A stretch of DNA of 64,000 bases from the NCBI RefSeq assembly GCF_949628265.1, contig NC_088787.1:1292501-1356500 (forward strand), in the 5' to 3' direction. This stretch comes from Cloeon dipterum. Its lineage: Eukaryota; Arthropoda; Insecta; Ephemeroptera; Baetidae. The translations under genes were made by a program, and so were the position numbers. Position 1 is the stretch's first letter. Each line of letters opens with the position of its first letter. Of the stretch, positions 5,614 through 64,000 are shown one piece after another. A model generated the notes under the pieces. It did not search any database. It was not told where the DNA came from and saw only the letters and a program-made list of their open reading frames with translations.

Positions 5614-7588
5614 TCAGAACCTTGGTCGAGTGGGCGGGGCCGTTACGACGCCGTATAAATCATTTTCAATTTCCTCGTGCACAATTTCCGGCGAGACAGG
5701 ATTCGGGAGAACGGGCATTTCCGTTTCCTCGGCGCCTGCGTCGCGCTGCTCGTTGGAATTTAGCAAATTTCTCTTTCTCAGGTAGAGCCAGAGGTTGATA
5801 ATGCAGCTCAAGACCAGGAAGAAGGCGAGCGAGCCGACCAAAGCAGAGTTAGTAGACTCGTCTGCTGACTTTTTTGCAGGGAAATTTCCACCTTTAATAC
5901 AGAATTAAATTTCACATTATCTTCATGGTTAAAAAATTCCGGAAATAGCTATTTTATCAGAGAAATTTACCTGTCTTTTGAAAATTCGTATCGATTGCAG
6001 CCTTTAGAAGCCTGTACCTGTACTTGTTCTCTGCATATCTAAATAAAGTAGTTATCCATAACGTTCCCGACAAGTCCAAGGCAAAACTATAAATCAGTGC
6101 TCCAACCTAAAAAGTGTAACGGACTCTTTATTTTAGCAAAGACCAAGAAATTTTATAATTGAACAAATGAAATAGTACACATTAAAATCATGAAAATGTT
6201 GACGAATAATAAAATATCAATGGGCTATTAGAATTAAAAATTAAATATTTAAATTGGGTAAATTACCTCATGAAAACGCTGCTCCTGAAAAGACTGGGAA
6301 TTGTTCCAAGAAAGTATGTAGTGTTCCCACAAGAATGCGGCAAACATGGTTCCGTGGTTGTCCATCAGCATTCTATGTGGTTTAATTGCAGTCCATTTTC
6401 CAATTATTTTCGGCATTGCACTTAGAGTTCCACTGCGAAGTGCGTCAACGGGAATTGAATACAGTTCAGTGGAGTTGTATTCGCCAAGGAAGAGCTGTCT
6501 CGGTTCCTGATCCTTAGGGGAAAGGGCAAAGGAGTAAACCTTTACTCCTGGCGTGTCCACCACCCAAGATTGGTTTCTTTCCAAACTAAACACGACAATG
6601 TTTTGTACATTCCACCGCGAGATGTAGGCGAAGGTTCCACGTGGCGTTTCGTCGATGGCCAAGTCGTACATCCAGCCGTTAAAAGAAAACCGATGGATCA
6701 GCTTGGTGTCATTATTTTTGCTCAAGTCAGTGGTCCATATTTTTGCTTTGCAGTCGGAGCTACCGCTGTCGAGCACCCACAGCCTTCCAACAGCATCTAC
6801 TTGCATCCCTTTTGCGACTTCAATTTTGTTGCAGTCTCCCTTTCCCTGCAAAAAGCATATTGTTGCGTTTTTGAACAAATTTTCATCGAAATTTCACATT
6901 ATTGCTGTATCAAACTTAAGAGGGCGAAAAACTGAAATTTCAAAATATAACTCGTTGCAGTTTTTCATAAATAAGAGGGGACTTTTGAGAAGGTGAAAAC
7001 CGTCTACTGTAATATATTTCTATTTTATTCAGGTTAATATTTTTCTCAAGAGCCACATACGTGATTAACTTCCATATATATCCTTGGAAGGATATAAGAA
7101 AGAATTTTTAGTAGTCAATACCATGTGAAATGCAGACAATTTAAACACTTTATTAAATATGGCTGCAAATTTCAATTGATTTCATATACATATAGAAGAA
7201 ACAATTATCGACTCAAAGAGCCTGTTTTTGCCTATAGCTATATGTTTTGATTATTAATTCAGACACTTACATGAAAGTCCCACGAGGGGAATGGAGTGAG
7301 CTTCGGACTTTCAGAGGATGTGCTGCTCGTTGGCAAAGTCACCAGAGTCACCGGAATGTCATTAAATTTATTTAGGCTGAGGAAGATCCTTGAACCGAAG
7401 ACGGCCATGAAATGAGGTATAATATTCTCTGGTTTGAAAGTTCCATCGTTCATGGCCTGCGTCCTGCTCGCCTCTGACGGCCACTCGTAGTCCAATCCAT
7501 TGGGCCACTCGAAGACCTGAGTGAAGTTGGCAGCAGTGGCCAGGGATGTAAGGCCGAGCAAAACGATGACAGTGAAGAAATTATTCAT
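5614..7588 (-). CDS. Yellow/MRJP-family protein A, membrane-anchored, short tyrosine tail (436 aa)
   Basis: Exons 7588-7271, 6845-6267, 6106-5971 and 5891-5614 join in phase to 436 codons plus stop. Residues 1-19 are a signal peptide; about 20-340 form the Yellow/MRJP domain (a six-bladed beta-propeller in known members), with RLWVLDSGSSDC, ETPRGTFAYIS, the ALSP turn and PHRMLMDNHGTM as landmarks. Unlike classical secreted Yellow proteins, a phase-1 intron then adds residues 345-436: a short stalk, a hydrophobic span (about 361-382) stopped by RKR, and an acidic tail with EEIENDLYGVV (Tyr424) and a TRPR end. Predicted type I plasma-membrane protein. Known family roles (melanin enzymes, amine binding, nutrition) do not predict the ligand. 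A short noncoding 5' piece is spliced at 7606/7607. It is divergently paired with PREP1. Confidence 0.88.
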
Positions 7589-10093: not shown

Positions 10094-10100
10094 CTGCAGC

Positions 10101-10189: not shown

Positions 10190-10732
10190 GTAAGTCTCCA
10201 AATAAATCTCATTTTAAAAAGCTATTGTAGTGAAATCCAATCAAAAAGTCAGTAAGTAGTATCTCAACCCCCTTTCCACCCCATTAAATCCTCGTTTTAT
10301 TAATCCGAATTGCTTGTATAAAAAGTAGACCTTTCTTACACTCACGCTTTAATTGCGGCATAAATAGTAATCATTCTCTGCGATCTCAACATTCACAACG
10401 CAGCAATAAAAATTTTAATTATTTCTCAAATATTTGGATTTTCTTCCTTTCTTCCTTGCGTGTCTTGTGTACCTGTCAGTTCATTTTTATCTCCCCCGTC
10501 GGCTCCGCTGCTTGATTTGCGAGCGTGTCAGGCACGGACTGGACAAACCAATAAAAAACAGGCACGGACTGGCCAGTTTACATTCTATCGTCAATATGTG
10601 CTTTTTTAATTCCCATTAAAAATATTGGTTTCGTTTAATTAAACAGTTTATTTGAATCATTTTTATTCAAAATTTCTTGACACCCCTTTTTCCCCGCAGC
10701 AGGTGGACAACGTGTAGGATCGTGTTGCGAGT

Positions 10733-13700
10733 ATGGCCTTCAACTACCCGGTTGCCAGGAGGGACGAGAGCGTCGTGGACGATTTCCACGGAACCAAGGT
10801 CACGGACCCCTACCGTTGGCTCGAGGATCCCGAATCGGCCGAGTGCAAGGAGTTCGTAAAAAAGCAGAACGCCATTACCCAGCCGTACCTGGAAAACTTC
10901 TATTACAGGGAGGAAATCAAGAGCCGCCTCACGCAGCTCACGAACTTTCCAAGATACTCGTGTCCCTCGCGCCATGGCGACCGCTACTACTTCTACAAAA
11001 ACTCCGGCCTCCAGAATCAGTAGTAATATTGCTGGTTACCGATAGAAGAGCAGTTGTATATTTTACGAATCAAATATTTTTTCAGCGTGCAGTACGTGCA
11101 GGATGATTTACACGGCGAGGCCTCCGTGTTTTTCGACCCGAACGAGCTGTCCGAGGATGGCACAGTGGCGATGACTCGATCCAAGTTTTCCGAGGACAGC
11201 AAAACCATGAGTTACAGCCTGAGCAAAAGCGGATCAGACTGGACCACCATCCACTTTAGAGACATCGAAAAAGGCAACAAACAAAATACTGGTTAAATAA
11301 TTATATTTATTAATCTTTGAAATTCAGGGTCTGATTATCCGGAGGTGCTGGAAAAGGTCAAGTATTCCTCGCTGACGTGGTCGCATGACAACAAAGGAAT
11401 CTTCTATGCCGTAAAGCTTTTTTCTATTTAAGAAGACCAGTCCTTATTCTCACATTTATTTTTTTAAATCAGATGTATCCGGAAGAGCAGGGAAAAGCAG
11501 ACGGCTCCGAGACGGAGTCGACGTTGAACCAAAAGCTGTGCTACCACAGGCTCAACACCCCACAGTCGGAGGACGTTTTGGTCGTCGAGTTCCCCGACGA
11601 GCCGCGTTTCAGAATGTACGATTAACCGTTTTATTAATTCAAGTAATTAATTCTTTTTAAATCAAACAGAGGTGCTTGTGTGAGCGACTGCGGCAATTAC
11701 CTGATCGTCTTGCCAGCGAAGGAATGCAAGGATAATTTGGTGTTCTTTGCCGAGATCGGCTCTCTGCCTGATGGACCTCAAGGATTGCTGCCTCTCACCC
11801 AAATCGTGCACAAATTGGACTCTGACTATGGGGTAAGTCATCTTTAAAAGATAAATGGCCTCCAGAGGGGGCAACCGTCCGTCGAGGAAGAGAAATTGAC
11901 CAAAAGAGTATATACCTGAGGAAGGAAGATGATAGGCAAGGGTGAAAAATCACCAAATGTGCTCCAAAAAAGCATAAAATATCGGTCAAGCATATCTCAG
12001 GTCGGGGTATTCTGGAACAGGTCGTAAAGGTTCCCAAAATAATATCCAATAAGGGATCGTGGTCGACAATCTTACGAGCAACTGAATTTTAAACAAAATA
12101 AAACCATTTTAGCCTTGGCAAATTACGAGACGCGCAAGGGTTTTCGAATAACATGATAAAAAAATCTGAAAACCAAGTTGACTTTTTTAAGAGTTGTTTA
12201 TATCAAAATTATTTTCCCAGTACGTGACAAACGTGGGGTCCAAGTTCATCTTCCGGACAAACAAGGACGCGCCCAACTACCGTTTGGTCACCATAGACCT
12301 GGAACATCCGAGCAAGGACCAGTGGAGGACCCTGGTGGCTGAGCACCCGAAGGACGTGCTCGACTGGGCCGTCCTCTCGAACAAAGACAAACTCGTCGTT
12401 TGCTACATCCACGACGTCACGGTTCGACCCTTGATTGATTGATTTTAAATTAATATTAATGCCTTTTAATGCAGAGCTTGCTGCAAATCCGAGATTTAGC
12501 CACCGGAAATCTGATCACGCAGCTGCCCCTGGACGTGGGCACGGTGACCGGCGTGTCTGCATATTGGAAGTACCCAGAGTTATTTTTCAGCTTCTCCTCG
12601 TTCCTCACGCCGGGAGTGATTTACATGTGTGACCTGTCAAAGCCTATCATTGAGCCTGTGGTAAGGAGTTATTTCGAGAAAAAAGCATTAAAAAATTATT
12701 CTCCAATTTCAGCCGTACAGAAAAACCGAGCTGAAGGACTTCGACGCCTCGTCCTACATGGCGGAGCAGGTGTTCTTCTCGAGCAAGGACGGCACCAAGG
12801 TGCCCATGTTCATCGTGCGAAAGAAGGACTTGAAGAAGGACGGCAGCAGTCCATGCCTGCTGTATGGATACGGCGGCTTCAACAGCAGCCTAACGCCTGA
12901 CTTCGGCGTCACGAGACTGGTCTTCATGCAGCATTTTGACGGAGTCTTCGTCTCTGCAAACATCAGGGGTGGAGGGTGAGTAATTTTTATACTTTTTTAT
13001 CCTTGTCCGAGGACTGGGAAGGGCACGAATGCTGAAACCCTGGTCTGAATAGCACCGCGAACGGATGACGGTCCAGGCCGCAAGGGGGACATTTAGAAAC
13101 GCTAGACATTCGACCCGTGAAGCCAAATCACGCATACTGGAAAGGTGGAAACCAGCAAGTAGCGAGTTTGTCTAGAGCTATGCGTGGTCACCCGTCCAGC
13201 TACTGACTGCACTCAATGTTGCTTAACTTCGGTGATGGAACGAGGACCGGAGTGTCCAACATGATACACCCTAGACAGATGAATTCGAACAATATTTAAT
13301 CTAAAATCAACAATTGTTTGTTTTCAGAGAATACGGTGAGTCGTGGCACAACGCTGGCCGACTGTTGAACAAGCAGAACGGTCTGGACGACTTCCAGGCC
13401 GCGGCCGAGTACCTGATCTCGGAGGGCTACACGAGCAGCCCCCGTCTGACGATCCAGGGTGGCTCGAACGGCGGCCTGCTGGTGGCGGCGTGCATCAACC
13501 AGCGGCCGGAGCTCTTTGGCGCCGCCATCGCGCAGGTTGGCGTCTTCGACTTGCTTCGCTTCCACAAGTTCACCATCGGCCACGCGTGGCTGTCTGAATA
13601 CGGCAGCCCGGACGACCCTGAACACTTCCCCAACCTGCTGGCCATCTCGCCGCTGCACAACGTCAAGGTGCCGCCGAAAGAAGTAGACGTTCCGAGGCAG

Positions 13701-14513
13701 TATCCGGCCACGCTGCTGCTCACCGCCGACCACGACGACCGCGTCCTGCCCCTCCACTCTCTCAAGTTCATCGCCCAACTGCAGCACACCCTGCGAGATC
13801 ACCCTGCTCAGGTGAGTGTTATTCGGATCCTGAATAGAAATATATAATCGTGGCTATACGAGAATCAGGGTTTTTTTCGGGACATAAATGCCTATCAACA
13901 GTTCCAGGTGATTTGACCTGTTGTATAAACAATCCACTAGTTGTCGCCACCGTATACATTCGTTATAAATTTAGTTTTAAGACACTTCCTCTGCGATTTT
14001 AGACTCAATCCTGCCACTAAGCATTCTTTTCTAAATCCTTTTTTCTTTTGATGTGTTGAAAACCAAAATCTACAGCTTTTATATCGGATGTTTTTCTTTT
14101 GTATCTGTTTCAGACGAATCCGCTGCTCATCAAGGTAGAGACCAAGGCTGGACATGGCGGCGGCAAGCCCACCGCCAAATGGGTGAGACCCAAATCGTCT
14201 TTATAGTTTGAAGCTAATCTGTTTGGGTTTTTACGATGAAAACTTTAAATTTGGCGCCACGGTTTATTTACTATTTTAACTGCTATTTCCGTTTAATTGC
14301 TTCAAAATATTTGAATTGAGTTGTTGAATCTCTTAAATTATTACGTCAATTACAATTTGAAACTTACGTAAAAAGCTTGAAAAATTCTATGATTTCTTAA
14401 TCTGAACACAATTCCAATTTTTTAAAATTGAAAAAATCATGTTTCAGATTGAAGAGGAAACGGACATTCTCTCATTCATCGGGCGTTCTCTGAACATCCA
14501 GTGCGTTTTCTGA
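10733..14513 (+). CDS. PREP: Prolyl oligopeptidase copy 1 (717 aa)
   Basis: Eleven coding exons: 10733-11022, 11086-11291, 11328-11410, 11473-11615, 11670-11832, 12221-12421, 12475-12660, 12713-12975, 13328-13811, 14114-14182 and 14448-14513. They join in phase to 717 codons, close to the 710 of vertebrate PREP. This cytosolic S9A serine peptidase cuts short peptides after proline. A seven-bladed propeller (about 75-435) gates the C-terminal alpha/beta-hydrolase, where Ser558 (GGSNGG), Asp648 (DDRV) and His687 (AGHGGG) form the triad; YGYGGF and the HAW tryptophan of the S1 pocket are kept. No signal peptide. An in-frame TAG just upstream fixes the ATG. A polyadenylation signal AATAAA lies at 14576-14581. 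This copy keeps the canonical residues changed in copies 2 and 3, so it is the best candidate for the ancestral activity. Confidence 0.92.
12990..13276 (-). mobile_element. 5S-rRNA-like SINE in PREP1 intron 9
   Basis: On the minus strand, 13276 down to about 13170 reads like a 5S rRNA gene: GTCTA start, CCGGTCCTCGTTCCATCACC, CGAAGTTAAGCAAC (A-box region) and GGGTGACC (C-box region). It is followed by about 180 bases of unrelated body. That layout fits a SINE3-type element with an internal polymerase III promoter. Copies occupy the same intron of PREP2 and PREP3, so the insertion predates the triplication. Confidence 0.7.
13905..14090 (+). repeat. Solo arm of a foldback element in PREP1 intron 10
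   Basis: The stretch from GTCGCCACCGTA to GTTGAAAACCAAAATC matches one arm of the foldback element at 50038-50459, in the same order (GCGATTT, GACTCAATC, GAAAACCAAAATC blocks). The opposite arm is absent. The same half element is present in PREP2 (about 22670-22805) and PREP3 (about 37245-37375). Confidence 0.5.
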
Positions 14514-16329: not shown

Positions 16330-16626
16330 TCAAGGCCTTGGTCGAGTGGGCGGGGCCGGGACGACGCCATATAAATCATTTTCGATTTCCTCGTGCACAA
16401 TTTGCGTTGAGACAGGATTCGGAAGAGTTGGCATTTTCATTCCCAAGTTGCGTTGTTTGTTGGAATTTTGCAGCTTTCTCATCCTCACGGTGAGCCACAG
16501 GTTGATAATGCAGCTCAAGACCAGGAAAAAGGCGAGCGAGCTGATCAAAGCATAATTTGTGGATTCTACCGTTCGCCCCGCTGTCCCATCGCATGATGGA
16601 CACTTACTGTTGGGTTCGGTCGTCAT
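16330..16626 (-). CDS. Yellow-less membrane/tail mini-gene (98 aa)
   Basis: An intact last exon of the short-tail yellow class (acceptor before 16646, stop at 16330) with no Yellow-domain exons upstream. Instead, about 100 bases upstream lies a copy of the yellow 5' leader, whose noncoding exon ends with a donor at 16759; beyond it is the GGCGAGCT promoter context. Splicing the leader straight to this exon would give an ATG at 16626 and a 98-residue protein: a short Cys-containing ectodomain (1-25), a membrane span (26-47), and a tail with HEEIENDLYGVV (Tyr86) and a TRPRP end. It may be an expressed adaptor-like protein or just the remnant of a deleted yellow gene in the PREP2 unit. The open frame, splice sites and tyrosine motif are all preserved. 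Confidence 0.55.
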   Translation of the reverse strand: MTTEPNSKCPSCDGTAGRTVESTNYALISSLAFFLVLSCIINLWLTVRMRKLQNSNKQRNLGMKMPTLPNPVSTQIVHEEIENDLYGVVPAPPTRPRP

Positions 16627-16646
16627 TGAAGCAAAAGTGGAGACAG

Positions 16647-18831: not shown

Positions 18832-19469
18832 CTGCAGCTCAGTGTCAGTCAAAGCGTCGAGCAGTGCACACGTCAGTCCTCTCCTATTCTCACCACATTT
18901 TCTCGCCGTGTGCAGCATCAGTTCACGGTAAGTCTCCAAATAAATCTCATTTTAAATGTTGTTGTGAAAGTTAATCAATAAGTCAGTAAGTAGTATCTCA
19001 ACCCCCTTTCCGTCCCATTAAATCCTCGTTTTATTAATCCGAATTGCTTCTATAAAAAGCAGACCATTATTACACTGAAGCTTTAGTTGCGGCATAAATA
19101 GTAATCATTCTCTGCGATCTCAACATTCACAACGCAGCAATAAAATTTTTAATTATTTCTCAAATATTTGGATTTTCTTCCTTCCTTCTTTGCGAAGCTT
19201 GTGTACCTGTCAGTTCATTTTTCTCTCCCCCGTCGGCTCCGCTGCTTTGCATGCGAGCGTCTCAGGCACGGACTGGACAAACAAATTAAAAACAGGCACG
19301 GATTGGCCAGTTTACATTGTATCGTCAATATGTGCTTTGTTAATTCCCATTAAAAATATTTGGTTTCGTCAAAATTAAACAGTTTATTTGATTCATTTTT
19401 TATTCCAAATTTCTTGAAGCCCCTTTCTATCTGCAGCAGGTGGACAACGTGCAGGATCGTGTTGCGAGC

Positions 19470-25171: not shown

Positions 25172-25426
25172 TCAATCATTTTCGATTTCCTCGTGCACCA
25201 TTTCCGGGGAGACAGGATTCGGGAGAGTTGGCATTTTCTTTCCCAAGTTGCGTTGTTTGTTGGAATTTTGCAAATTTCTCATCCTCAGGGTGAGCCACAG
25301 GTTGATAATGCAGCTCAAGACCAGGAAGAGGGCGAGCGAGCCGATCAAAGCATAGTTTGTGGATTCTTCCGTTCGCCCCGCTGTCCCTTCGCATGATGGA
25401 CACTTACTGTTGGGTTCGGTCGTCAT
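25172..25426 (-). pseudogene. Second yellow-less membrane/tail mini-gene, tail truncated
   Basis: Nearly the same sequence as the 98-residue mini-gene at 16330 and likewise preceded directly by the yellow leader and promoter (25440-25700) with no Yellow-domain exons. The frame opens at ATG 25426, passes MTTEPNSKCPSCEG and the membrane span, and stops after EEIEND. The downstream bases coding LYGVV are replaced by ATCGAT-rich sequence, so the only tyrosine motif is lost. This makes a functional signalling tail unlikely. It may still yield an 84-residue membrane peptide. Confidence 0.5.
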
Positions 25427-27520
25427 GGAAGGAAAAGTGGAGACAGCTGGAAAAGAATAATTATACCCGTAGATATAAATACAATGTAGCAGCAGAAAAC
25501 AAAACATGCATAAAAAATTTAAAATTCTAAAAAGATTCAGAAACTGCTTTAAAAAAATACGAACCTGCTCGCTGGGTATAAACGGAGGCAAAACTGCAGT
25601 AAGTTGATTGGCTTTTAGAAGCAACGAGCTCGCCTTCAAAAGCAGCCTACCAGGAAATTTTCACTTGGCTCAATTAATTTTGATAAAAGCATAACGCAGA
25701 AGGTGCGATAAGCCAAATAGCAGACACAATACGTTCCTGCGCACGAAACATGGAAAACTGAGAGCAGCAAAAAATCCATAAAATCGATCCTATATTTTAA
25801 AATTCAAAATACAATAATTTAAAAGATTTCTCCAAGGTTTTTGACTATCACTAATTTAAAATCGGCTCTTTTAGTGCACAGAAATCAGCATTTTAAAATA
25901 AAATTTGCGATATGGTTTATAGAAATATTTAATTTTACCTATTAAACTATAGATGAAACAAGAAACAATAATTATTAGATTAACCACTCATTTTATTTGC
26001 GAGCGGAGGTATATTTCAGCTCTCATTATTCTCTTTGGTTGACTCTCTCAGTTAAGATTAAGTTTCTTTTTGAAGCAGGATACGTGTTTGCGTCAGGGTT
26101 TGATAAGAATAGCAGCTGGCATAACCGCACAAACAGGCCGGCACCTATATCGCTTTGCTTTGCGCACGTTAACGCACGTACAAGGAAAAATTGCAGCCAC
26201 AATTCAAGCAACAAGACTGACTTATTGTCTAAAAAATTGCCATAGAGAGCTGCTGAAAGTTGATTACTTTAAATTTCAATCAATTCACTTGGCCAGTGCA
26301 AAATAATATTTTTAATCTATGGTTTTCTATGGTTTTCAGTGCCTTTGTAATATGCATAACATGCAATTATTTTTTAATAATTTAGATTTTCACTAGTTTT
26401 AATATAGAGCCACCTGCGAAAACTTATTTAATTAAGGGGGAAGGCTTTGGATCTGCGCAGAGCAAATGCGCGTCGGTCCGCTTGATTCTACTCTTCTCAA
26501 AACGGCAGGTGCCTTTTATTTTATTTCCCAGCGCCACCTTCTGTGCTCTTGATTCAATTTCATTCGTTTCCGCCTCCGCAAGCTTAGCTATGCCATTCAA
26601 AGTCTCTTGTCTGCTTGTTTGGCCGACTTCCCCCTCCTTCTGTGACGTCACACCAAGTGCCTCCAGCGCTGTGTCTGGGCCTAAGATAAATTTATACAGT
26701 TGAAAAATAAGCTGTTTAAAATGTAATACGGATCAAGCTTATGCCGCACTTTTGTATTGCTTTCGATTTTGAAGCAGGAAATTTGTTTGCGTCAATCGGG
26801 GGTGATAAGAGTGGCTGCTATCGATGCCGGGAAAAAACGCAGAAACAGGCCTGCGCACCTCGCCTTGCTTTGCGCACGTACAAGGAAAAATTGCAGCCGC
26901 CACAATTCCAAAATTCAAGCAGTACGGCAGACTAGTTGAAAGATTTTTTTCCGAATATAAAGTACATGTTCAAATGACGGATATACTGAAAAATGAAGGA
27001 GAAAAGAGGCTAAAATTTTTTTATTCTTTGAATCGCCCCAAAAAGGAGCCTCCTCATCGTTTTGAAAGATTTACTTTGTAAAATGTGCCGAAGGATAAAG
27101 CAAGTGAAATCGAGATCAAATTTTCTTATCGCCGCATGACTCATTTCATACCGAGATCAAGGAAAAAATAAAGAAATCGAAAAAGTTGTTGGCTTTTACA
27201 CTGCCTACTTGACTGGTATTTTCTTTTATTATTATAATCGATTATTCTCATCCAAGTCTTAAATACATATAATATAACGTAGAAGGTCAGGTAAATTACA
27301 AAATGAAAAAGGTTACAACGCTAGCAGAAAACCGATAAAATAGACCGTAGGTAAAAAATCAAAATCAACGGATCTTACATTAAAATATAATAAAATACTT
27401 AAAAATATCAAGGTTTTTTCCGAAATAAGTAAAATACGAGATAAAGGAATATACGTCTAATTTCCGCAACCTAATGTGAATTTATTAATATTCATCTTTA
27501 GAACGGAGCACCGATGATGT
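25427..27520. repeat. Intergenic repeats before yellow gene B
   Basis: Leader/promoter remnant of the truncated mini-gene, then TTTGCGTCA repeats (26087, 26785) and a CRE module (TGACGTCA at 26643-26650). From 27080 on, the AT-rich 3' flank of yellow B. No coding exon recognised. Confidence 0.45.
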
Positions 27521-29916
27521 TCATGGCAGAACCTTCAGGTATTGTGCCGACTCGGAAGTAGCAGCGTCATCAAAAGGTGGCATCGTGGAAGGTTCCGGTG
27601 CAACTTCATCGTACAGAGGTTCTGGTTCAGCAGTGCGGACGTAGTCGTACTCGAACTGGAGTGGAGCGCGAGGCGCCTCTCCAAATTCCTCGAAAGTCCT
27701 CGGTCTCTCAGGCATCGCTTTCACTCTTCTCGCTGATCGCGGGCTGAGGCGTATCGGTGGCTCGTAGAGACCAGGAGAGGGGGGCCTGGCAGCGGCCTGG
27801 TCGTATTTTACTTCCTCGTACAGTGGCACTTCCGCGGGGCCGACGTCATCGTACTCGGCCGGATCGTCGGGTAAAACGGACATTTGCTGGGCCTCGTTCG
27901 TGTTTTGCGATAGGGAATTTTTTCTCTTCAGTTTCAAGACGAGCCAAATAATGACAATGCTCAACAAGACGATGCTGAACACGTTGGAGAAGATCAGAAT
28001 GATATTCAACAGCCGATGTTCTTCATCAGGCGTCGAAGATTGTGTTGTGATCGGGATAGACAAGTTGGATCGTTCTGCAATGGTAAAAGGGTGTTTGTTT
28101 GGTCTTTTGGGTAGAGATAGTGGTGATTGGAATGTCTGGCTTAATTGAATAAAGAATAAATCAACATAAAATCGTTTATTGTAGCATAATGTAGTTAAGA
28201 AAAAAATTGAAAAGCTGGCCTAGACTGCGGTTGACTGCACCGAATTCATTTTAATTCGTCGATTTATTTTAGCACAACTGAATGAATGAGAATTTCTTAT
28301 TTGTTGGCTTTAAATAGGATGGAAAGTTAGATTTTTCATACCATTTGTAATATTGAAAAGTTTTCAGTGCATAAAAAGCAAACATATATACCTGTCACCG
28401 TAGAATCAGTGATGTGGTATGGCTTCACACCGACTGCAGTCTTTATTAGGCTGCACCGTGGCTTGGTCCCTTTATCATTAAATACAGTAAGCCAAAAGGT
28501 TGCCGACGAGTCCAAGGCAAAAGTGAACGGCAAAATAGTGTTCATATTTTGAACCTGAAAAGTACAACGGGCTGTTAAAATTGACGGAAATTAATTGTTC
28601 ACTCAACTCTTCCGATTTAAAATAGTGAACATAGAAAGGTTCACTCATAATTTAAATCAATGTCTAATAGAATCGCAAATTTACTATTGAACACGGTAAA
28701 TATACCTCATGAAAACGTTGCTCCTGAAATGGCCAGGAAGTGTTCCATGATTGTATGTAATTCGTCCCCCAAAAGGTGGCATACATGGTCCCGCGGGTAT
28801 CCATCAGCATTCTATACGAATTTATTGCAGTCCATTTCCCGATTAGTTTCGGATTTGCAGTCCCAGTTCCGTTGCGAAGAATGGCAACGGAAATTGAATA
28901 CACTTCATAGGAGTAGGATTTGCTCAAGTAGAGCTGTCTCGGTTCCTGATCCTTTATAGGGGACAGGGCAATGGAGAAAAACTTCATTCCTGGCGTGTAC
29001 ACCAACCAAGACAGGTTTCTTTCCAAACTAAACACAACAATATGTTGTTCATTCCTCCGCGTGATGTAGGCAAAGGTTCCGTTGGGTGTTTCATCAATCA
29101 CCATGTCGTGCATCATCAAGCCGTGAAAAGGAAACTGATGAATTAGTTTGGTTTGATCATTTTTGGACAAGTCAATGGTCCATATTTTTGCATTGCAATT
29201 GTCGCTACCGTCATCGAGCACCCACAGCCTTCCAACGGAATCAATTTCCAGCCCTCTTGCTTCTTCAATTTTGTCGCAGTTTCCATATTTCTGCAAAAAA
29301 GAATATTGATCCGATTTTAAATAATTTTCACTTTTGACACAATCATTTAATCTTTTTAAGAGAAAAATATTTATCCTACTTTAATTCGTTTTCTGTTTTT
29401 TTCTTATATAAATATATTTTGTAATAGTCCTGACAACGTGAAAACAAATAAATACACCTTTCTATACGTGGCTGCAAATAATATCAAGCTGATCGAAAAT
29501 GGGAAATATCAATAAAAATAAAAAAGTGACTGTATTTGCTGACAATGAGTGCATTTGACTTGATTGTTCTCTCTACCACACCACTCCATACTTACATGCA
29601 TGTCCCACGAAGGGACTGGAGTGAGCTTCGGGGACGCAGAGGACGCGCTACTGGTCGTCGGCAAAGACACCAAATTCGCCGGAATGCCTTCGTCTTTATA
29701 CAAACTGAGGAAGATTCTTGTTCCGTAGACAGCCATGTAACGAGGTATGATATTCTCTGGTTTGAAAGTTTTATCTTTCAAGGCCTGTGTCCTGTTCGCC
29801 TCCGACGGCCACTCGTAGTCCAATTCATCGGGCCATTCGTAGACTAGGGAGAAGTTGGCGGTGAAAGCCAGGGATAAAAAACCGAGCAAAACGGTGACAG
29901 TGAAGAAATGATTCAT
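27521..29916 (-). CDS. Yellow/MRJP-family protein B, membrane-anchored, long multi-tyrosine tail (540 aa)
   Basis: Exons 29916-29596, 29290-28706, 28554-28392 and 28074-27521 join in phase to 540 codons plus stop. A signal peptide (1-19) and Yellow domain (to about 355) closely match gene A, with RLWVLDDGSDNC and YRMLMDTRGTM landmarks. The last exon differs completely: a 28-residue membrane span (about 378-405) closed by KLKRK, then a 135-residue cytoplasmic tail with tyrosines in YDDV (431), YEEV (442), YDQA (447), YEPP (460), YDYV (499), YDEV (511) and YLKV (535). These acidic pYxxV patterns resemble SH2 docking and ITIM/ITAM-like sites; RPPSPG and EPPIRLSP add proline-rich stretches. Predicted type I signalling receptor, upstream of and divergent from PREP3. 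The kinase and ligand are unknown. Confidence 0.87.
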
Positions 29917-45689: not shown

Positions 45690-47923
45690 TCACAGCCTTG
45701 GTCGAGGGGGCAGGGCCGTGACGACGCCGTATAAATCATTTTCGATTTCCTCGTGCACAATTTCCGGTGAGACAGGATTCGGGAGAGTGGGAATTTCCAT
45801 TTCCATGGCGCCTGCGTTGCACTGATCGTTGGAATTTCGAATTTTTCTTATCCTCAGGGTGAGCCACAGGTTGAAAATGCAGCTCAAGACCAAGAAGAAT
45901 GCGAGCGAGCCGATCAAAGCTGAGTTTTTAGATTCTTCTGTTTTCCCAGTTTGCACTTTTTTCACACATCCGCACGTGGAGTTGGGTGGAACACTTGTAG
46001 GAGAAGTGGAGTCTGGAACTGAATATTAAATCATATAGAAACAATATTTCACATGCCTTGCGATGGTTGAAAAGCTTACAACTAGTTTACAAAGGTAAAT
46101 TAGGTTATTTCATTTTTGGTATTAATTTTTTTCAAGGGGAACTGTGTTCAGGTGAAACTTACCTGGCGTCGTATCGAAGATGTATGGCACAGTGAGGGAT
46201 GGAAATGTGGAGTCATCTGGCGATGAATATTTAACCACATCTATAAATAATAATTTACATATGTTGAAACTTAAAAGAGCTCCCTGAAATAGCTATTTTG
46301 TCAGAGAAAAGTACCTGTCGCCGGAGAATCAGTGATGTAGTATGGCTGCGCACCGACTTCAACCTTTAGTAGCTTGCACCTTGGTTTGGTCCATTTATTT
46401 TCAGTCAGCCAAAAGGTACCCGACGAGTCCAAGGCAAAAGTAAACGGCCAATAAGTATTCAGATTTTCAACCTAAAAGATGTAACAGGCTGTTGTAATTA
46501 TAGCTAAAACCGAAGGATATAATTGAAGGAATGTAACCGTACACACAACTCCCGAATTCGAAATGTTGACCGATATTAAAATTAAACTTGAAGAGAAAAA
46601 ATCTTATTCTAATTTTTGTCCTACCTTATGAAAATGTTGCTCTTCAAATGGTTGGGAAGAGTTCCAAGAGCGTATGTAGTTTTTCGACAGAAAGGCAGCA
46701 TACATTGTCCCGTGGTTGTCCATCAGCATTCTATACGAATTAATTGCATTCCATTGTCCAATTAGTTTCGGATTTGCAGTTCGAGTTCCGTTGCGGAGTG
46801 CGTCAACGGAAATTGAATATAGTTCATTGGAGTCGTATTTGCCAAGGTAGAGCTGTCTCGGTTCTACCTTAGGGGACAGGGTGATGGACAAAACCTTGAT
46901 TCCTGATGTGTCTACTATCCACGACTGGTTTCTTTCCAAATTAAACACAATAATGTTTTGTGCACCCCACCGCGAGATGTATGCGAAGGTTTCTTTGGGT
47001 TTTTCGTCAATCACCAAATCGTGCAGGTATGAGCGAAATGATAACTGGTGAATTAGTCTGATGCGATCGTTGTTGATTAAATTGATGATCCATATTTTTG
47101 AACTGCAATTGTAGCTACCCTCATCAAGCACCCACAGCGTTCCAACGGAATCGACTTGCAATCCTTTTGCTTTTTGAATTTTGTTGCAGTCTCCCTTTCC
47201 CTGTTAAAAGCATAAATTTTCGTTTTTGATAAAATCTTAATATGAATTTTTTCTTTTGACATCATCATTAATTAAAAAGTGAATAACAACGAATATTCTA
47301 TGCATAATTCATAAACTGTTTTTTCTTATGTAAGTGAATTCTTGTTTACATTTATATTTAATTTAGATTGCAAATTATCAAAAGCTAAAAGTGATTCAAC
47401 TCTCTTCTTCTTGTAAAGAAATTATAATATATATAATTGTGTTTAACCTCTTGACCTAATGTAAATAATTTTGTTAATGAAGCTGAATATTTCTAGACGA
47501 TTCTAAGAAAATTAATAGAATGCATAAAATTCTACTTAAAATTACTGTTTTTGTTGATATTGAGCGCATATGGTTTGATTGTTAACTCTTTTCTATGTAT
47601 TCACTTACATGCATGCTCCACGAAGGAAAAGGAGTGAGCTTCGGGGGCTCAGAAGACTCGCTGCTCGTTTGCAAAGTTACCAGAGTCATCGGAATTCCAT
47701 CAAATTTTTCAAGGCTTAGGAAAATCCTATCTCCGTGGACAGCCATGTAACGAGGTATGATAATCTCTTTTTTGATAGTTCCGTAACTGAGGGCTTTTGT
47801 CCTGCTTGCCTCCGACAGCCACTCGTAGTCGAATTCATTCCACTGGTAAACTTGAGTAAAGTTGGCTGCGGCGGCCAAGGATGAAAGTCCGAGCAAGAAA
47901 ATGACACAGAAGAATGGATTCAT
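45690..47923 (-). CDS. Yellow/MRJP-family protein C, membrane-anchored, short tail (484 aa)
   Basis: Exons 47923-47609, 47200-46625, 46471-46315, 46240-46163 and 46018-45690 join in phase to 484 codons plus stop. Signal peptide 1-19, Yellow domain to about 350 (TLWVLDEGSYNC and YRMLMDNHGTM landmarks), then an extra 78-base exon that lengthens the extracellular stalk and a last exon with Cys-rich STCGCVKK. The membrane span is about 409-430 and the tail has HEEIENDLYGVV (Tyr472). In gene D the sequence equivalent to the extra exon starts the last exon, so an intron was gained or lost here. The TATATA promoter word (48226-48231) is in the GGCGAGCT context shared with the other yellow genes. Predicted type I membrane protein; ligand unknown. 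Confidence 0.86.
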
Positions 47924-50769: not shown

Positions 50770-52718
50770 TCACATCCTTGGTCGAGAAGCCAGGGCCGTG
50801 AGGACGCCGTATAAATCATTTTCTATTTCCTCGTGCACCATTTCCGGAGAGACAGGATTCTGGAGGGCGGGCATTTCCAATTCCACGGCGCCTGCGTAGT
50901 ACTGCTCGTTGGAATTTTGCAATTTTCTCGTCCTCAGGGTGAGCCACAGGTTGAAGATGCAGCTCAAGACCAGGAAGAGGGCGAGCGATCCGATCAATGC
51001 AGAGTTTGTAGATTCTTTTGTTTTCCGATCTGCACATGTACAGTTGAGTGTAACAGGGGAAGAGGGAACAGTGGAGACATCTGTTGATGAGTATTTAACC
51101 ACATCTAAAAATATTGAAGGTTAAAAGAGCTTCCAGGAAAAAGTTATTTTGTCAGAGAAAAGTACCTGTCGTCCGAGAATCACTGATGTGGTATGGCTTC
51201 GCACCGACTGCAGCCTTTAGAAGGAAGTACTTGTACTTGGTTCCTGCCGAACTAAATTGAGTCATCCAAAAGGTGCCTCTAGAGTCCAATGCAAAACTAG
51301 AAATAATGTGTCCAGCCTAAAAATTGTAATGGACTGTTGTCAATTTAACAAAATAAGACAAAAGAGTTAAATTAAAGAATTGGAACCATAAACACAAAAC
51401 TCTAAAATTAAAAATATAGACCAATAGCGAAAAATATCTCAAATAAGTCATAAACCTTTTTTTAAATTGGTGACCTACCTCATAAAAACGTTGCTCATGG
51501 AATGGCTGGGAAGCGTCAAACGAGGATATGTACCTTTCCCCTGAAAAGGCGGCATACATGGTCCCGCGGTTGTCCATCAGCATTCTATGCGGCTTATTGG
51601 CTGTCCATTTTCCGATTAGTTTCCGGTATTCAGTTCCAACTCCGTTTCGAAGTGTGGCGACGGAAATTGAATACAGTTCATTCGAGTCGTATTTGCTAAG
51701 GTAGAGCTGTCTCGGTTCCTGATTCTTAGGGGACAGAGCAATGGATAAAACTTTGACTGCTTTCGTGTCCAAAACCCAAGATTGATTTTTCTCCAAACTA
51801 AACACGACAATGTTTTGTTCACCCATGCGCGAGATGAAGGCGAAGGTTCCATTGGGTGTTTCATCAATGACCATGTCGTGCATCAAATAGTGGAAAGGAA
51901 ACCGATGAATTAGTTTGGTGTGATCTTTGTTGGACAAGTCGATAGTCCATATTTTTGAATTGCAATGATCGCTACCGCTGTCCAGCACCCACAGCTTTCC
52001 GACTACATCTACTTCCAGCCCTTTTGCTTTTTCAATTTTGTCGCAGTTTCCATATTTCTGCAAAAGGCATAAAGTTGCGTTTTCGGTCAAATCTTCGTCT
52101 CGAAATTTCCATTTTCAGATAATTATTAACTCTTAATAGATTAATTTAATTTTAAAACATAACTAACATGTCATTTTTTCATACGAAATATTTTAATATG
52201 CTTAATGGAGCAGTTAAATTCCTTAAAGCTAGACGCACATTTACTATAATAACATTGCTCCGTGGAAAAAATATTTTGTGACAACGTAAAATCGAGAAAA
52301 TTCAAATACTTTTGCGCAGATATGGCTACATAAAATTAGAAAAAAATCAATAAAATTGTATCTTAAAAGTTTGTTTTGCTGATTTGATTATTTATCATAT
52401 ACTCACATGTGTGTCCCACGAAGGAAATGGAGTGAGCTTCGTGGGTGCAGAAGACGCACTGCTCGTCGGCAAAGACACCAAAGTCACCGGAATGCCAATA
52501 TGTTTTTCAAGGCTGAGGAAGATCCTCGTTCCGTAGACAGCCATGTAAAGAGGTTCAATATTCTCCGGTTTGAAAGTCCCATCATTCAAGGCCTGTACCC
52601 TTTTTCCTTCCAACGGCCACTCGTAATCCAATTCATTCCACTTGTAGACTTGAGTGAAGTTGACGGCGGTGGCCACGGAAAGGCGGAGCAGAATGATGAC
52701 ACACAAGAAAGGATTCAT
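50770..52718 (-). CDS. Yellow/MRJP-family protein D, membrane-anchored, short tail (458 aa)
   Basis: Exons 52718-52407, 52057-51479, 51316-51166 and 51104-50770 join in phase to 458 codons plus stop. Signal peptide 1-18 and Yellow domain to about 345, with KLWVLDSGSDHC, ETPNGTFAFIS and PHRMLMDNRGTM landmarks. The last exon adds a Ser/Thr-rich stalk with a CTC pair, a membrane span (about 383-404) and a tail with HEEIENDLYGVL (Tyr446) and an arginine-rich end. It is nearest to gene C in the stalk and tail, and both have a CAACCGG...GGTTGC motif about 200 bases past the stop. Predicted type I membrane protein. Confidence 0.86.
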
Positions 52719-55103: not shown

Positions 55104-58100
55104 TTAAAGCTGAACTTCATCGTCGCTGGGTAAGACTTGAAGATAGAGCTCCGAAGCAGGAAGCTCCGATTTATCAACATATTGCGCGGATGTGCTAGGT
55201 TCCGGTCCGACGTCATCGTAAATGTGTTCCGACTCTGCATCATTTAGCTCGACTGCAGTTTCGGGTCCAACGTCGTCATACTGCGCAGAATCGTAGAAAT
55301 GAGTGTCCAGCTCTCCTTTCAACTGATCTCTCAGGATTTTTTGATTCTGCCTCGCAACCAGGATGCACCAAAAAATAATTGTGCAGCACAAGACCAAGCT
55401 GAGTGCGTTTGAACAGATCAGAATGAGGATTACAATTCTCATTTGGTGCAGGGTATTCGAATCTCCAATCATTGTCGCAGGGAAACGTTGAGAATTTTGA
55501 AGACCTGGAATTGTTTTAAAAAATATCAGTCCCCCAGCGAGCAGAGGGGTAACCGCGGTCACTTTTCGGTCACCTGACGAAAGTTGAACAAAGTGTGGTT
55601 TTGCATTTAAGGAATGATCCTGATTCATGTTTCATTGGATTTTTTTTTTAAATTTAGCTTGGATCATGCAAATTTTGAGTGCCCAGTCTTGGGCACCCGA
55701 TGGGCACCTTTCGGTTACCCGGAGCGGGCAGAGGGTCACTTGCGGTCTCCTAACAAAATTAAAACTAAGGGTGATTTTGCATTTCAGGCATGATCCTGAA
55801 TCATGTTTCATTAAATTTTTGTCGAAATTTTGCTTGGATCACCGAAATTGCCAGTGCCCAGTCTTGGACACCCATCGGGCACCATTCGGATACTCGGAGC
55901 GGGCAGGCGGTTAACTATGGTCACTTGCGGTCACCTAACAAAATTAAAGTTATGGATGGTTTTGCATTTCAGGCATGACCTTCAATCATTTTTTGCTGGA
56001 ATTTTTTGAAATTTTGCTTAGATCATGTTGAATTGCCAGTGCCCGGTCTTGGGCACCGAATGGGCACCTTTCGGATAACCAGAGCGGGCAGGAGGTCACT
56101 TTTGCGGTCATCCAACAAAATTTAAACTAAGAGTGATTTTGAATTTCATGCATGACCCTGAATCATTTTTCACTGCAATGTTTTTGAAATTTTGCTTGTA
56201 TCATGTCGAAATGCCAGTGCCCAGTCTTGGGCACCGAACGGGCACCTTTCGGATAGCCGGAGCGGGCAGGGTGGTAACCGTGGTCACCTAGCAAAAGTTG
56301 AGTTAAGGGGGGTCTTGCAATTCAGGCATGATCTTGAATTATGTTTCATTTATTTATTTTTTAATTTGGTTTTGATCATCCAAAATACCAGTGCGTAGTC
56401 GTGGGCACCAAAAGGGCACCTTTCGGGCAACTCGGATGGGATAACTGCGGTGTGACCGATTCATGAACTGTTTGGGTCAATTTTTGGGCACAGATAAAAG
56501 ATGGTATTTAATTAGCGGAAATTAAATTTTTTATGCATTTTAAAATAACCACCCAATGTGTACCTTTTGGTCACCAAATGGTTAGCCCATGCGCGGGCAC
56601 CATATTTTTTTAACTCCTTTTAATTCTAAAATTTTTCAGATTTTTTCAATTCAGGTTTAAATTTATTTATTTAGTAAAATACACAAGTAACTTAAAAAAT
56701 TAACTATGATAACCAAAAGGGGTTACCCAATGGTTAACCAATGGGCAACCTCATAACCACAATTAATTATTTATTCCGTGTAACGTTAAAAAGTATTTAT
56801 TAAAAATATATTTATTGAGTTTTAATATACCCTTAGTAGCATTTTAAACTCTTTTAATTTAATCGTTTTGAGCACAATTCACTCAAGCAGCTTTCGCGCG
56901 CGTTTCATTGTTACACTCGTCAGGCCGCGCGTGGCGCCACTGTCGGCAGTAGCATAAGCTGCCGCCGTGCTGGTTGTTTGTGTTTGAGAACGAACAACAA
57001 ACAGGACGGCTGGCTGGATTATTGCATCATAATTTTCGTCAGAGATTTTCGCCGTGTTTTTGGACGTGTTTTGAGAAATCAACTTAATCAACGAATCCTT
57101 GGACGAATGACGGATGGTTTGCAAGGTAAGGGCATATTGAATTTACTTAGATTTTAGCAGGGAGGGCTTACAAAAATACGCGCGCGTAAAACTGATTGTT
57201 CATTGTATGTGATTGTATGTAAACACCAAAATTGTCATTTCAAATTGTTTATTGTCATCCTTGTGTCAGCAGGCTTGAACCGTGTCCCACCCTAATCTGT
57301 CTGCACATGTACAGGAAGGGATTCCAAGCTTGGACAACCGGGACAACCGAACTGAACCTTTGCCGCGCAGCATGCAGGTATGCATTTAAACGCATGGCGA
57401 ATTTATTGAGTAGAAAAAGTAATAAATTGCATTTTATTTTGTAGCGTGATGTCTTTTTGTGCTATTTTTCGCTGACATGGAATGGAAGAGACGGCTGGAT
57501 GCGACTCCGGGGAGACGTAAAACAACAATTTGACAGGAACAAGTGGAAATGCTTAAAACTGCGGACCACACGAAGGAAGAATGAGTGTGGTAACTTGTGT
57601 GTTTGATAGCTATTTTGTTGTTATATTTGTGTGCCTAAATTGAGACTTAATTTAAGACTCAAATGTAAGATTTCACTGATTTTAACCAGATCTTTAAGCC
57701 AGGCGAGTGAATGCCAGCATTTGTTTGCAAGCGTTAACATGGCTCTTTTTAGTCATTTTCAATTTATGGCTATATAATAGCTCGAGAGTGTTTATATATG
57801 TACTAATGAAACACTTAAGTTTTTTAATTTTTGAAGTTGGATTTTAAATTTTAAAATTGAACGTTCTTCAAATTTTAAGTGGAAGAAATGTGTTTTAATA
57901 CACTTCAATAATTTTCCTTTGTTACTTTAATTATTTTCGTCAATTCAGCCAGCTAAAACCGGCTTTTGGTCGAATTAATTTTAAAAAACGTCATTTTTAA
58001 GCGCTGAAATTTGCACCACACATTCTTTGTGTTGATGTTTGCAACAATTTAAATTCCCAAAATAGTTTTATTAAATCATATTTAGTTGATGTTGGCAATC

Positions 58101-61100
58101 TCTACGCAGGTTATATTTTGAATTTAATATTCTCTGATAGTCATTGCTAGGCATTTGCGAATGGCTTATTATTTGTTCGAAGTCTCGACAATTAACAGCA
58201 ACTTTCGATGTTATTTACTTTCAAATGTGGTTTTGGACTCAATCCTGCTGCTGTGCATTCTGGACTTCAAATAATTGATTTTAATATGCTGAAAACCAAA
58301 ATCAGTTCAGCCAGTCACCGTGGAAACGTAAAGATAATTTTTTTATCAATTTACTGACGTTTCAACGGTGATTGGCTAGACTGATTTTTGGTTCCAGCTC
58401 ATCAAATAAAATCATTTTAAGGGTTGTTTACACAGCAGCAGGATTGTGTCCTAAATCTTAGTTAAATCGCATTAAAATAATACTACGTAACAGCTGTACC
58501 CATTTATATTGGGAGACCAAAAGGGCCATTCGCAACTGGTGAATTTGTGCAGAATCATGCAATTTTCCAAAATTATTTAACATGTTGCTGCATTATTATT
58601 ATTAAAAATTATTATTATTATTGCCTTTCAAAAAAAATTTGTAATTACAATTTTGGCGATTATGTCATCAATTTATAAGATTGCAGTTTTCCGTGGTGAA
58701 TCTGACGCGGTATTTTGGCGACGAAAATCTAAAATACAATTATATTTGCTTATCCTGTTCATGGAAGGTGGACTGAAACTTTTACTGCGTTGATAATACC
58801 TTGAAATCTTCACTAATAAACCTAGTTTTCGACCCACAACTTTTTATTTAACAAAAAATTCGCAGGTTGTAGGTCAAGGTCACCTTTCGCGACCTTTTTC
58901 GAAAATTCATAATTAAGGGAAGATAGATCCCTTAGATTTTTTTGGGGTTCAGGGCTGAAATGTAGCCCTTGAAATTCTGCACAAGCTCACCAAGTTTCAA
59001 CAATGTGCAACAATAGTTTTGCTTTAATTTGAATAAATTAAAAACCGACTCGAGGCCGCTCGATCGAGCATGGCATTAAGTCGGCGAGTTCGCCGATCAT
59101 TCGTCCATAATATTTTTACCCATTGCATTGGATAATCCACAACAAGAGGGCCCAGTGTAGACATATTAAGGTCGAAATCGACCTTCAGGGTCTGTACCTG
59201 ACGAGACCCTGAAGGTCGATTTTGACCTTACTATGTCAATCATGGGTCCTCTTGTTGTATCTAATCAAATGGAATGGGTAAAAGTATTATCGAAGAATGA
59301 TCGGCGAACTCGCCGACTTAATGCCATGCTCGATCGAGCGGCCTCGAGTCGGTTTTTAATTTATTCAAATTAAAGCAAAACTATTGTTGCACATTGTTGA
59401 AACTTGGTGAGCTTGTGCAGAATTTCAAGGGCTACATTTCAGCCCTGAACCCCCAAAAAATCTAAGGGATCTATCTTCCCTTAATTAAGAATTTTCGAAA
59501 AAGGTTGCGAAATGTGACCTTGACCTACAACCTGCGAATATTTTGTAAACTGAAAATTTGTTCAGGATCGAAAACAAGGTTGGACAGTAAATATTTCAAG
59601 GTGATACCACAACGCAGTCAAGAGTTACACTCCGCCTCTCAATTTCTGAATTTCATGTTCCGGGGATTTTTAAGAAATTGTAATTTTAGGGAATGGATGG
59701 TCATCGATTTATAAAATGTTTAATTTTGTGATTTTTACTTTGCTGTATTGAAATAACAAATAAAAGTGCTGCCCATCTGGCTGCTCACTGAGGGTGACCC
59801 CAAGCGGGCACCCAATGGTTACCTTTTGGCTACCTCTTACCTAGGGCTGTCATTTTGCGCTATACTCAAATTTAACTTTTTTAACGAACAGAGTCAATCG
59901 ACCTGCCACCTGACAGCCCTAGATAAAAGGTGGCCAAAAGGTAACCATTGGCTGCCCACTGGTGGTAACCTCAGCCGGGCACCCAATGGTTAGCTTTAGG
60001 TCAACGAACATTCTCGGCCTCTCATTTATTACGCTCCCTGAATTCAGGTATACTTTAAATGTACATAAAAGGTGATTCTATGAAAGGTCATAATAAGGGT
60101 GCCCATTTGGTGACCGAATTCTGGGCATGACCACTCGCGGGTGCCCGAAGGGTTGGACATGCGGTATAACCAATGGGTGCCCATCTGGGTGCCCACGGGG
60201 GGTAGCCGGGTGACCGAATGCGGGCACCCAATGGGCACCTTTTGGTTGACTTTTTTCTCGGTGGGCCATTGATTAATGGCGCCAAATTATTTCCAAAAGG
60301 TTTACCTGCGCAGGCGCCGATCGCAGCTTTCTCCAGAATGAATCTCGGGATGTTATTAGATCCATGGTCTACAATTATCCAAAGGAATCCACATTTTTTA
60401 TCCAAGGCCAAAGTGAATGGCCTGATGGAACTCAGATTTTCCACCTAAATTGGGCAAAACAGTAAATTACTTGATCAAATTCATGAAAATTTACCTCGTA
60501 AATAATTTGACCCTGAAATGGCTCGGTAACCTTCCACTTTTTGATGTAATTCTTGTCTTTGAAAACGGCGTACAAGTTCCCATTTGCATCCAAAAGCATT
60601 CTGTAGGGCGCGTCAGCCCAAGAGCCGATCAGACTCATTTCCACGTTTTTATTTCCGGCTTCCAGCTCGGAAGCGGAAACTGAAAGCAAATCACTGGCGT
60701 CGAATATCCTGAAGTAGAGCAACTTGTTTTTGGACTCGATTCCAGGGGAAATAGCGAGAGCATAGAATTTATTTCCCTGCGTCTTCACCGCCCAGGACGA
60801 GTTTGATTTCATGCTGAACGCGATGAGGTGGTCGGCCTTCGAGTCTGCGATGAAGGAAAGGCAGTCGTCTTTCGTCTCGTCCAGGACCAAATCATGCGGC
60901 CACCTTTGTTCAAAATCATGGGAAACCACCGAGCTGGGGAATGTGTGGACAAGCTCTGTCGAATCGTTGTTTAAAAGGTTAAAAATCCAGAGCTTTGAAA
61001 GACAATAAGGACTTCCGACGTCTAGAACCCAAAGCCGGCCTGCAGAGTCTACGTCAAGCCCGGTTGAGCTCTGAATTGTCTCACAGTTTTCCTTCACCTA

Positions 61101-61705
61101 AAAATTTATCAAAAATTAGCAATTTTGTGGTAAAAACGTCTTAGACGAAGTTTCGGAGCACACCGATCGATTCTTGAGGGTTAAATTAGGTATAGAAGAT
61201 GGTTTTCCCGACCAAAAAGTCAAGCGTAATGTGTAACTTTTTTTCCCGCCAAAAAATATGAATGCGAGAACTGCGCATGCGTGAGAGCTAGTTTGAGCAC
61301 TTGCAGAGAGATGACTTCTTTGTCTCACGCATGCGCAGTTCCTGGATATACTTTCAAATTGTTTTGGTGGGAAAAAATAAACCTCGTTAAAGACGGTCTG
61401 TAAAATTTCAAAGGAATAATTCTCACGTGCATGCGTCGGGATGGAAAGGGAACAAGTTTAGGAGCGGAAGAAGATCCGCCATTTTGGGTCGAGAGTGAAA
61501 CCAAAGTGACGGGAGTGTTGTCCTGGTGGGCAAGGCTGAGGAAGACTCTTTCCTCGAACACTGCCATGTACAGAGGATAAATAGGTGCAGGCCGTGAATG
61601 CGTTTTATCGTATTCAAGGTGGTTCCACTTGGAGACGGTGGTGAAGTTCAAGCCGTTTGCCATCCACGGCCTGATTAAAAAGGCTAGAAATAAAATTGGA
61701 GGCAT
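55104..61705 (-). CDS. Yellow/MRJP-family protein E, membrane-anchored, long tyrosine tail (473 aa)
   Basis: Exons 61705-61427, 61097-60495, 60444-60306 and 55504-55104 join in phase to 473 codons plus stop; the last intron is 4.8 kb and full of repeats. The ectodomain is divergent (RLWVLDVGSPYC, PYRMLLDANGNL) and its N-terminus is shorter. The last exon gives a membrane span (about 363-390) and a tail with YDSA (411), YDDV (416), YDDV (436), YVDK (449) and YLQV (461), clearly of the long-tail class of gene B. The long-intron joining is inferred from matching phase, strand order and the absence of any other yellow exons between 55.5 and 60.3 kb; the ectodomain exons are certain as a gene, their link to this tail somewhat less so. 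Confidence 0.75.
55550..56460. repeat. Tandem array of a ~180-bp unit in the last intron of yellow E
   Basis: About five degenerate units. The word GCCCAGTCTTGGGCACC or close variants recurs near 55680, 55856, 56038, 56219 and 56393, with spacings of 174-182. Each unit also has GAGCGGGCAG, GGTCACTTGCGGTC and TTTTGCATTTCAGGCATGA. The array begins just upstream of the acceptor of the tail exon. Confidence 0.8.
57114..57606 (+). CDS. Possible small three-exon gene inside yellow E intron (78 aa)
   Basis: Downstream of a CpG-rich stretch (56890-57000), an ATG at 57114 leads into a GTAAGG donor (57126). Open segments with good splice sites follow (57315-57377 and 57445-57606), all in phase 0 and ending in TGA. 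The predicted product is basic in its last exon (KCLKLRTTRRK) and has no family resemblance I recognise. Opposite strand to the host gene. The frame is short, so this may be a noncoding transcript or chance. Confidence 0.25.
58190..58545. mobile_element. Diverged foldback element in yellow E intron
   Basis: Two inverted arms with GCTGAAAACCAAAATCAGTT on one side and CTGATTTTTGGTTCCAGC on the other, meeting in an A/T-rich loop. Same family as the element at 50038-50459 but with more mismatches. Confidence 0.55.
58790..59620. repeat. Long palindrome of about 830 bp
   Basis: Arms of about 400 bases mirror each other around 59198-59204. The inner 300 bases of each arm are close to identical (for example CGACTCGAGGCCGCTCGATC near 59046 and its inverse near 59340); similarity falls outward to ACTGCGTTG and its inverse at the ends. 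No open frame of note. Probably a foldback transposon. Confidence 0.8.
59770..60245. repeat. GGGCACC/GGTTACC-rich repeats with an inner inverted-repeat element
   Basis: Repeated words such as GGGCACCCAATGG and GGTTACCTTTTGG in both orientations. Between about 59800 and 59970 two arms (CCTAGGGCTGTCA and TGACAGCCCTAG at the inner edges) form an inverted repeat. The related words in 55650-56760 suggest one element family seeded both blocks. Confidence 0.55.
61269..61340. repeat. Perfect 18-bp inverted repeat in yellow E intron 1
   Basis: AACTGCGCATGCGTGAGA (61269-61286) and its exact reverse complement (61323-61340) are separated by 36 bases. The core resembles the NRF-1 consensus GCGCATGCGC; the arms could equally be the ends of a tiny MITE. 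Confidence 0.6.
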
Positions 61706-63988: not shown

Positions 63989-64000
63989 GTAATGATTTTA

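Follow-up and report, generated by a model that had tools for sequence, protein, structure and literature searches.

Five Yellow/MRJP (major royal jelly protein) genes lie on the minus strand of a 64,000-nucleotide stretch of the Cloeon dipterum genome (contig C2:1292501-1356500, NC_088787.1, of a 190 Mb assembly; hereafter the window), and each continues past the Yellow domain into a last exon encoding a predicted membrane span, a basic flank and a tail with tyrosines. As far as DNA and selection can tell, this architecture is real, and the genes probably encode type I cell-surface Yellow proteins whose cytoplasmic tails act through these tyrosines. Known Yellow/MRJP proteins act outside cells as pigment enzymes, as amine binders or as food for bees, and are usually soluble, ending after the propeller, whereas in all five window genes a span and a tail follow. 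The original prediction, made from the letters of the window, had placed five genes at these positions with such an ending, and our models agree, all five splicing in frame (GT-AG) into the last exon. Their coordinates, with the tail classes described below, are as follows.

5614..7588, minus strand: gene 1, class A tail, 436 amino acids; exons 7588-7271, 6845-6267, 6106-5971 and 5891-5614; hand-built model
27521..29916, minus strand: gene 2, class B tail, 540 amino acids; exons 29916-29596, 29290-28706, 28554-28392 and 28074-27521
45690..47923, minus strand: gene 3, class A tail; exons 47923-47609, 47200-46625, 46471-46315 and 46018-45690
50770..52718, minus strand: gene 4, class A tail, 458 amino acids; exons 52718-52407, 52057-51479, 51316-51166 and 51104-50770
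55104..61705, minus strand: gene 5, divergent, B-like tail; exons 61705-61427, 61097-60495, 60444-60306 and 55504-55104; hand-built model

The propeller is encoded by exons 1-3, and the span, basic flank and tail by the last exon. Gene 4 shows zero differences from the NCBI protein P0002 across 458 residues, span and tail included. For gene 3, there is an alternative model in which 46240-46163 and 45955-45690 replace the last exon. Gene 5 is the weakest of the five, with a tail exon located 4.8 kb from exon 3 and matching a class B tail at 31%; the exon 3/tail join is in phase and open. The automatic model of gene 1, which added a spurious mini-exon, was set aside, and that of gene 5, which was wrong, was replaced by the hand-built one.

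Fold and membrane topology

Genes 1 and 2 matched the Pfam MRJP profile (PF03022) with 69.1 and 78.3 bits, respectively, against a cut-off of 19.8, and gene 4 is predicted to fold as a six-bladed Yellow propeller with a long helix. These predictions support the view that the outer domain is a true Yellow propeller. The propeller of PknD from Mycobacterium tuberculosis, a sensor protein that carries its kinase inside, resembled the model no more closely than designed propellers or unrelated ones did. A single C-terminal span is predicted, with the tail-side flank the more positive in 20 of 20 genes, and the N-termini of the window-region genes appear hydrophobic by eye. Membrane anchoring is very likely.

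The domain and six-bladed propeller are those of insect Yellow, dopachrome conversion enzyme, MRJP1 and sand-fly LJM11. According to passages of PMC6678240, typical members consist of a signal peptide and one MRJP domain and are thought to be extracellular, and two-domain forms exist in some bivalves and insects; the C. dipterum genes differ in adding a span and a tail under selection.

Last-exon classes

We surveyed 244 kb of C2 around the window. Of 37 Yellow anchors, two shorter than 300 bases were excluded and 35 were modelled; nine models were discarded (low score, stops or degenerate), leaving 25 automatic models, with gene 1 swapped for its hand-built version, which together with the hand-built gene 5 make 26 genes. 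Four kinds of last exon were distinguished: class A (short, with LYGVV), class B (long, with YDxV/YEEV), class C (short and basic, without tyrosine) and a glycosylphosphatidylinositol (GPI)-like kind that terminates in a hydrophobic stretch without a tail. The 26 genes comprise 11 of class A, 6 of class B (including gene 5), 3 of class C, 5 GPI-like and 1 without an anchor. Gene 5 apart, the 16 clean genes of classes A and B all have a phase-1 exon-3/last-exon junction and an open tail frame; a phase-1 junction is also present in the class C genes and in four of the five GPI-like ones, GPI-like model 30 being in phase 2. Genes 1 and 2 exemplify the two tyrosine-bearing classes:

5614..5891, minus strand: gene 1 last exon (class A), encoding a membrane span, an RKR flank and a tail containing EEIENDLYGVV
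27521..28074, minus strand: gene 2 last exon (class B), encoding a membrane span followed by KLKRK, YDDV, YEEV, YEPP, YDYV, YDEV and YLKVLP

EEIENDLYGV occurs in 11 of 11 class A tails, with one YGV[VLF] per short tail. In the five clean class B genes, the 134-140 cytoplasmic residues carry YDDV (YNDV in one), YEEV, YEPP, YDYV/YDDV, YDEV/YDQV and a C-terminal YL[KQ][VIL]L, and each tail holds two YxxV pairs at a spacing like that of the immunoreceptor tyrosine-based activation motif (ITAM). The gene 5 tail is shorter, with two YDDV and no ITAM-spaced YxxV pair. All six class B genes have two or three YDxV copies per tail, and eight further B-like tails have none to three. The strict ITAM, YxxI/L-x6-8-YxxI/L, was found in none of the six class B tails; five match if V is permitted at +3.

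Genome-wide, there are at least 199 MRJP exon matches, and most of those listed are on C2. Last-exon matches numbered 41 for class A, 100 for class B, 37 for class C and 6 for the GPI-like kind, which are not numbers of genes, since the classes overlap and some matches contain stops. Every listed class A and B match sits on C2; 128 of the 141 were merged into 124 places, 13 class B matches being omitted.

Probable exchange of last exons, and orphan tails

Median silent divergence was 0.205 in class A tails against 0.551 in the ectodomains, and 0.250 against 0.738 in class B; the pooled values were 0.213 against 0.599 and 0.250 against 0.558, respectively. A clade with 100/100 support in the ectodomain tree unites three class B genes (10, 11 and 15) with two class A genes (16 and 18), so that both tail classes occur within one ectodomain clade, and the well-supported branches require at least two changes for class A and at least three for class B. 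Moreover, genes 11 and 15 are 98.8% identical over a 5.3 kb block beginning within the tail exon, the corresponding upstream block being 90% identical. Given the low silent divergence of the tails, the mixed clade and this block, the tails appear to have been homogenised and swapped. On these sequences, an exchange of last exons would best explain A and B tails in one ectodomain clade, possibly through gene conversion or unequal exchange.

A dispersed repeat at 17480-17760, with copies near 9792, 24533, 26543, 32112, 44701, 49647 and 54541, has eight matches in the window, including itself, and 26 in the 244 kb. Such a repeat could seed unequal exchange.

Tail exons also occur outside valid genes, three of them in the window:

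16330..16646, minus strand: orphan tail exon of class A; its phase-1 acceptor fits, and no ectodomain exon was found close by on the same strand
25172..25446, minus strand: orphan tail exon of class A; its phase-1 acceptor fits, and a stop comes immediately before LYGVV
61997..62518, minus strand: orphan B-like span and tail (containing VVYEEIYPEPSTSADYGYV), directly 5' of gene 5; C2 position 1354563

The two class A orphans lie downstream of gene 2 and, compared with in-gene tails, gave pooled ratios of non-synonymous to synonymous divergence (dN/dS) of 0.36 and 0.37. Considering their phase-1 acceptors and this apparent constraint, gene 2 might splice alternatively to several tails. Partial duplication is another possible source of these exons, one of which stops before LYGVV. 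Elsewhere on C2, the orphan tail at 1423444 has Yellow fragments nearby.

Selection on tails and ectodomains

Pooled dN/dS over span and tail was 0.49 (0.33-0.75) for 11 class A genes and 0.40 (0.28-0.59) for five class B genes, and the 11 codons of EEIENDLYGVV, a stretch selected post hoc, gave 0.056 with a synonymous divergence (dS) of 0.33. The tails are thus under purifying selection, which means that the frame is translated in at least some transcripts, without indicating the tissue or isoform. Diversifying selection on the ectodomains was not found on average, with pooled dN/dS of 0.46 and 0.48 and a range of 0.37-0.62 in nine close pairs.

Public proteins and literature

The best 120 of the 126 closest public proteins are all from C. 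dipterum, and the GenBank proteins P0003, P0005 and P0009, encoded on other contigs, possess span and tail. Searches of public proteins, which need shared 5-residue words and included no other mayfly genome, returned no tails outside C. dipterum, and absence elsewhere is not shown by them. The main text of the C. dipterum genome paper (PMC7250882) does not mention royal jelly, yellow or MRJP. The view that this architecture matches no described system agrees with a title and abstract search of the open-licence literature, in which we found neither a receptor-type Yellow nor any description of the arrangement.

We took 34 C. dipterum proteins, P0003, P0005 and P0009 among them, as an older annotation on the basis of source and contig size. 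For these, the closest whole match to a reference protein reached at most 87%; this suggests fast turnover or cryptic species, neither of which we claim, the reference set being incomplete and a control gene absent.

Proposed function and alternatives

We propose that a six-bladed Yellow propeller would stand outside the cell on a short stalk; the protein would cross the membrane once and work through the tyrosines of its cytoplasmic tail, with the propeller as the variable recognition part and the last exon as an exchangeable anchor. Surface location, ligand binding, phosphorylation, adaptors and any physiological role are what we infer from the architecture. A tyrosine-dependent function of the tails is likely. 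Class A tails, with EEIENDLYGVV, would most likely present a tyrosine sorting or docking signal, and the class B pairs of YDDV/YEEV and YDxV/YDEV would most likely undergo phosphorylation and bring in SH2 adaptors (Nck/Dock or Src/Syk type), in the manner of nephrin and its YDxV motifs. The repeated YDxV/YEEV motifs of class B fit phosphotyrosine docking better than class A tails do; phosphotyrosine signalling is plausible, with about an even chance in class B and less in class A. Class C members, with no tail tyrosine, and GPI-like ones may be non-signalling partners or decoys of the same fold.

YxxΦ is an endocytic tyrosine signal, and LYGVV would read equally well as one. The claim of a type I receptor that reads a ligand and signals through tyrosine phosphorylation is partly supported: its type I topology, Yellow propeller and selected tail are borne out, and ligand reading by the propeller, phosphorylation of the tyrosines and any signalling by class A tails are putative. 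These could instead be endocytic or scavenger surface proteins, whose propeller binds a small molecule, a sterol or a microbial product and whose YGVV is read by AP-2, without phosphotyrosine signalling at least in class A. The single YGV[VLF] of the short class A tail is consistent with this, and so are the small ligands of Yellow relatives, as given in parts of the respective papers: serotonin for LJM11 (PMC5094789), whose amine pocket is formed by Thr327, Asn342 and Phe344, and 24-methylenecholesterol for MRJP1 (PMC6105727). However, conservation extends upstream of the tyrosine (EEIEND), beyond what YxxΦ needs, and class B tails carry many acidic tyrosine sites; we regard the endocytic role as a real but minority possibility. 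Ordinary dopachrome-converting or structural Yellow proteins tethered to the epidermal surface as enzymes or cuticle components appear improbable, given that a large family mainly on one contig and constrained tail motifs exceed the needs of a tether, and that class C and GPI-like ends already provide plain anchors.

Among known systems, nephrin and other YDxV receptors that dock Nck share the repeated YDxV of the class B tail (motif as given in part of PMC12203975), but the nephrin ectodomain is immunoglobulin-like, whereas that of C. dipterum is a predicted Yellow propeller and its tail phosphorylation is putative. ITAM-type receptors and the paired immune receptors of vertebrates (KIR, LILR and CEACAM) share with the C. 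dipterum genes tandem pairs at ITAM-like spacing and the joining of similar ectodomains to different last exons, GPI-like ones among them. The C. dipterum YxxV pairs have V rather than I/L at +3, the fold is unrelated, and an immune role in C. dipterum is putative. More speculatively, the C. dipterum Yellow proteins might form a large recognition-receptor system organised like the paired receptors, with diversified ectodomains on a few exchangeable anchors (YGVV, multi-YDxV, plain short and GPI-like), perhaps for defence or self/non-self recognition; we hold both this system and an immune-like role to be doubtful. If tyrosine-acting surface proteins are the correct reading, they would represent a new insect receptor family, a new use of the Yellow propeller and a testable case of receptor evolution through last-exon swapping in one of the basal orders of winged insects.

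Several observations weigh against such surface proteins. Public models frequently end short of the tail: in a crude hydropathy scan of the 120 C. dipterum relatives, 45 had a hydrophobic span in the C-terminal half and 75, some of them partial models, did not. The statement that all complete Yellow genes carry span and tail holds for the five window genes and fails for the wider family. A hydrophobic N-terminus was seen, also by a crude scan, in just 13 of the 45. Tail queries retrieved just six class A and four class B public proteins, and the NCBI model of gene 1, P0001 (387 amino acids), is odd, retaining span and tail with part of the propeller missing. Of the 23 tail matches in the 244 kb, six are orphans (five outside gene models and C2 1354563 wrongly absorbed into one), among them the B tails at C2 1393193 and 1419292, which fall in a recent duplication. 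With these orphans, the idea that tail exons form genes of their own is refuted only in part; of the 18 matches placed within models, the one at C2 1454626 (model 19) is degenerate.

The spanless relatives and the orphan exons would fit secreted Yellow proteins that end after the propeller, with the last exon mostly skipped or a relic. Against this stand tail dN/dS values below 1 with intervals that exclude 1, the open frame of all 16 clean tails and the span and tail of P0002, P0003, P0005 and P0009, which make secretion unlikely.

Other adverse points concern the tyrosines and the ectodomains. The EEIENDLYGVV stretch was picked after its conservation had been seen, and the pooled pairs have common ancestry; class B codons for Y, +1 and +3 gave 0.20 against 0.45 for the rest, yet the intervals overlap. 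The B-like orphan at 62 kb retains one of six conserved tyrosine columns against 38 of 134 others, and gene 5 three of four against 35 of 98. Since ectodomain selection is purifying on average, no arms race is shown.

Other features of the region

An additional Yellow gene begins at the window edge:

63710..64000, plus strand: first-exon match of an additional Yellow gene, continuing beyond the window

On another contig, C1:18972715-18990218 holds equal-score MRJP matches every ~10.4 kb, the outcome of recent tandem duplication or of a duplicate in the assembly. At 873-4886 on the minus strand, there are three cysteine/histidine-rich open reading frames, one without a match and two weakly zinc-finger-like (zf_UBZ and zf-TRAF, below cut-off). 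Three DM9-repeat exons above the Pfam cut-off (PF11901) lie at 38508-43106, also on the minus strand. Among the Yellow genes, three prolyl oligopeptidase units (PF02897/PF00326), ~94% identical, are located on the plus strand at 10601-14000, 19335-22731 and 33864-37302.
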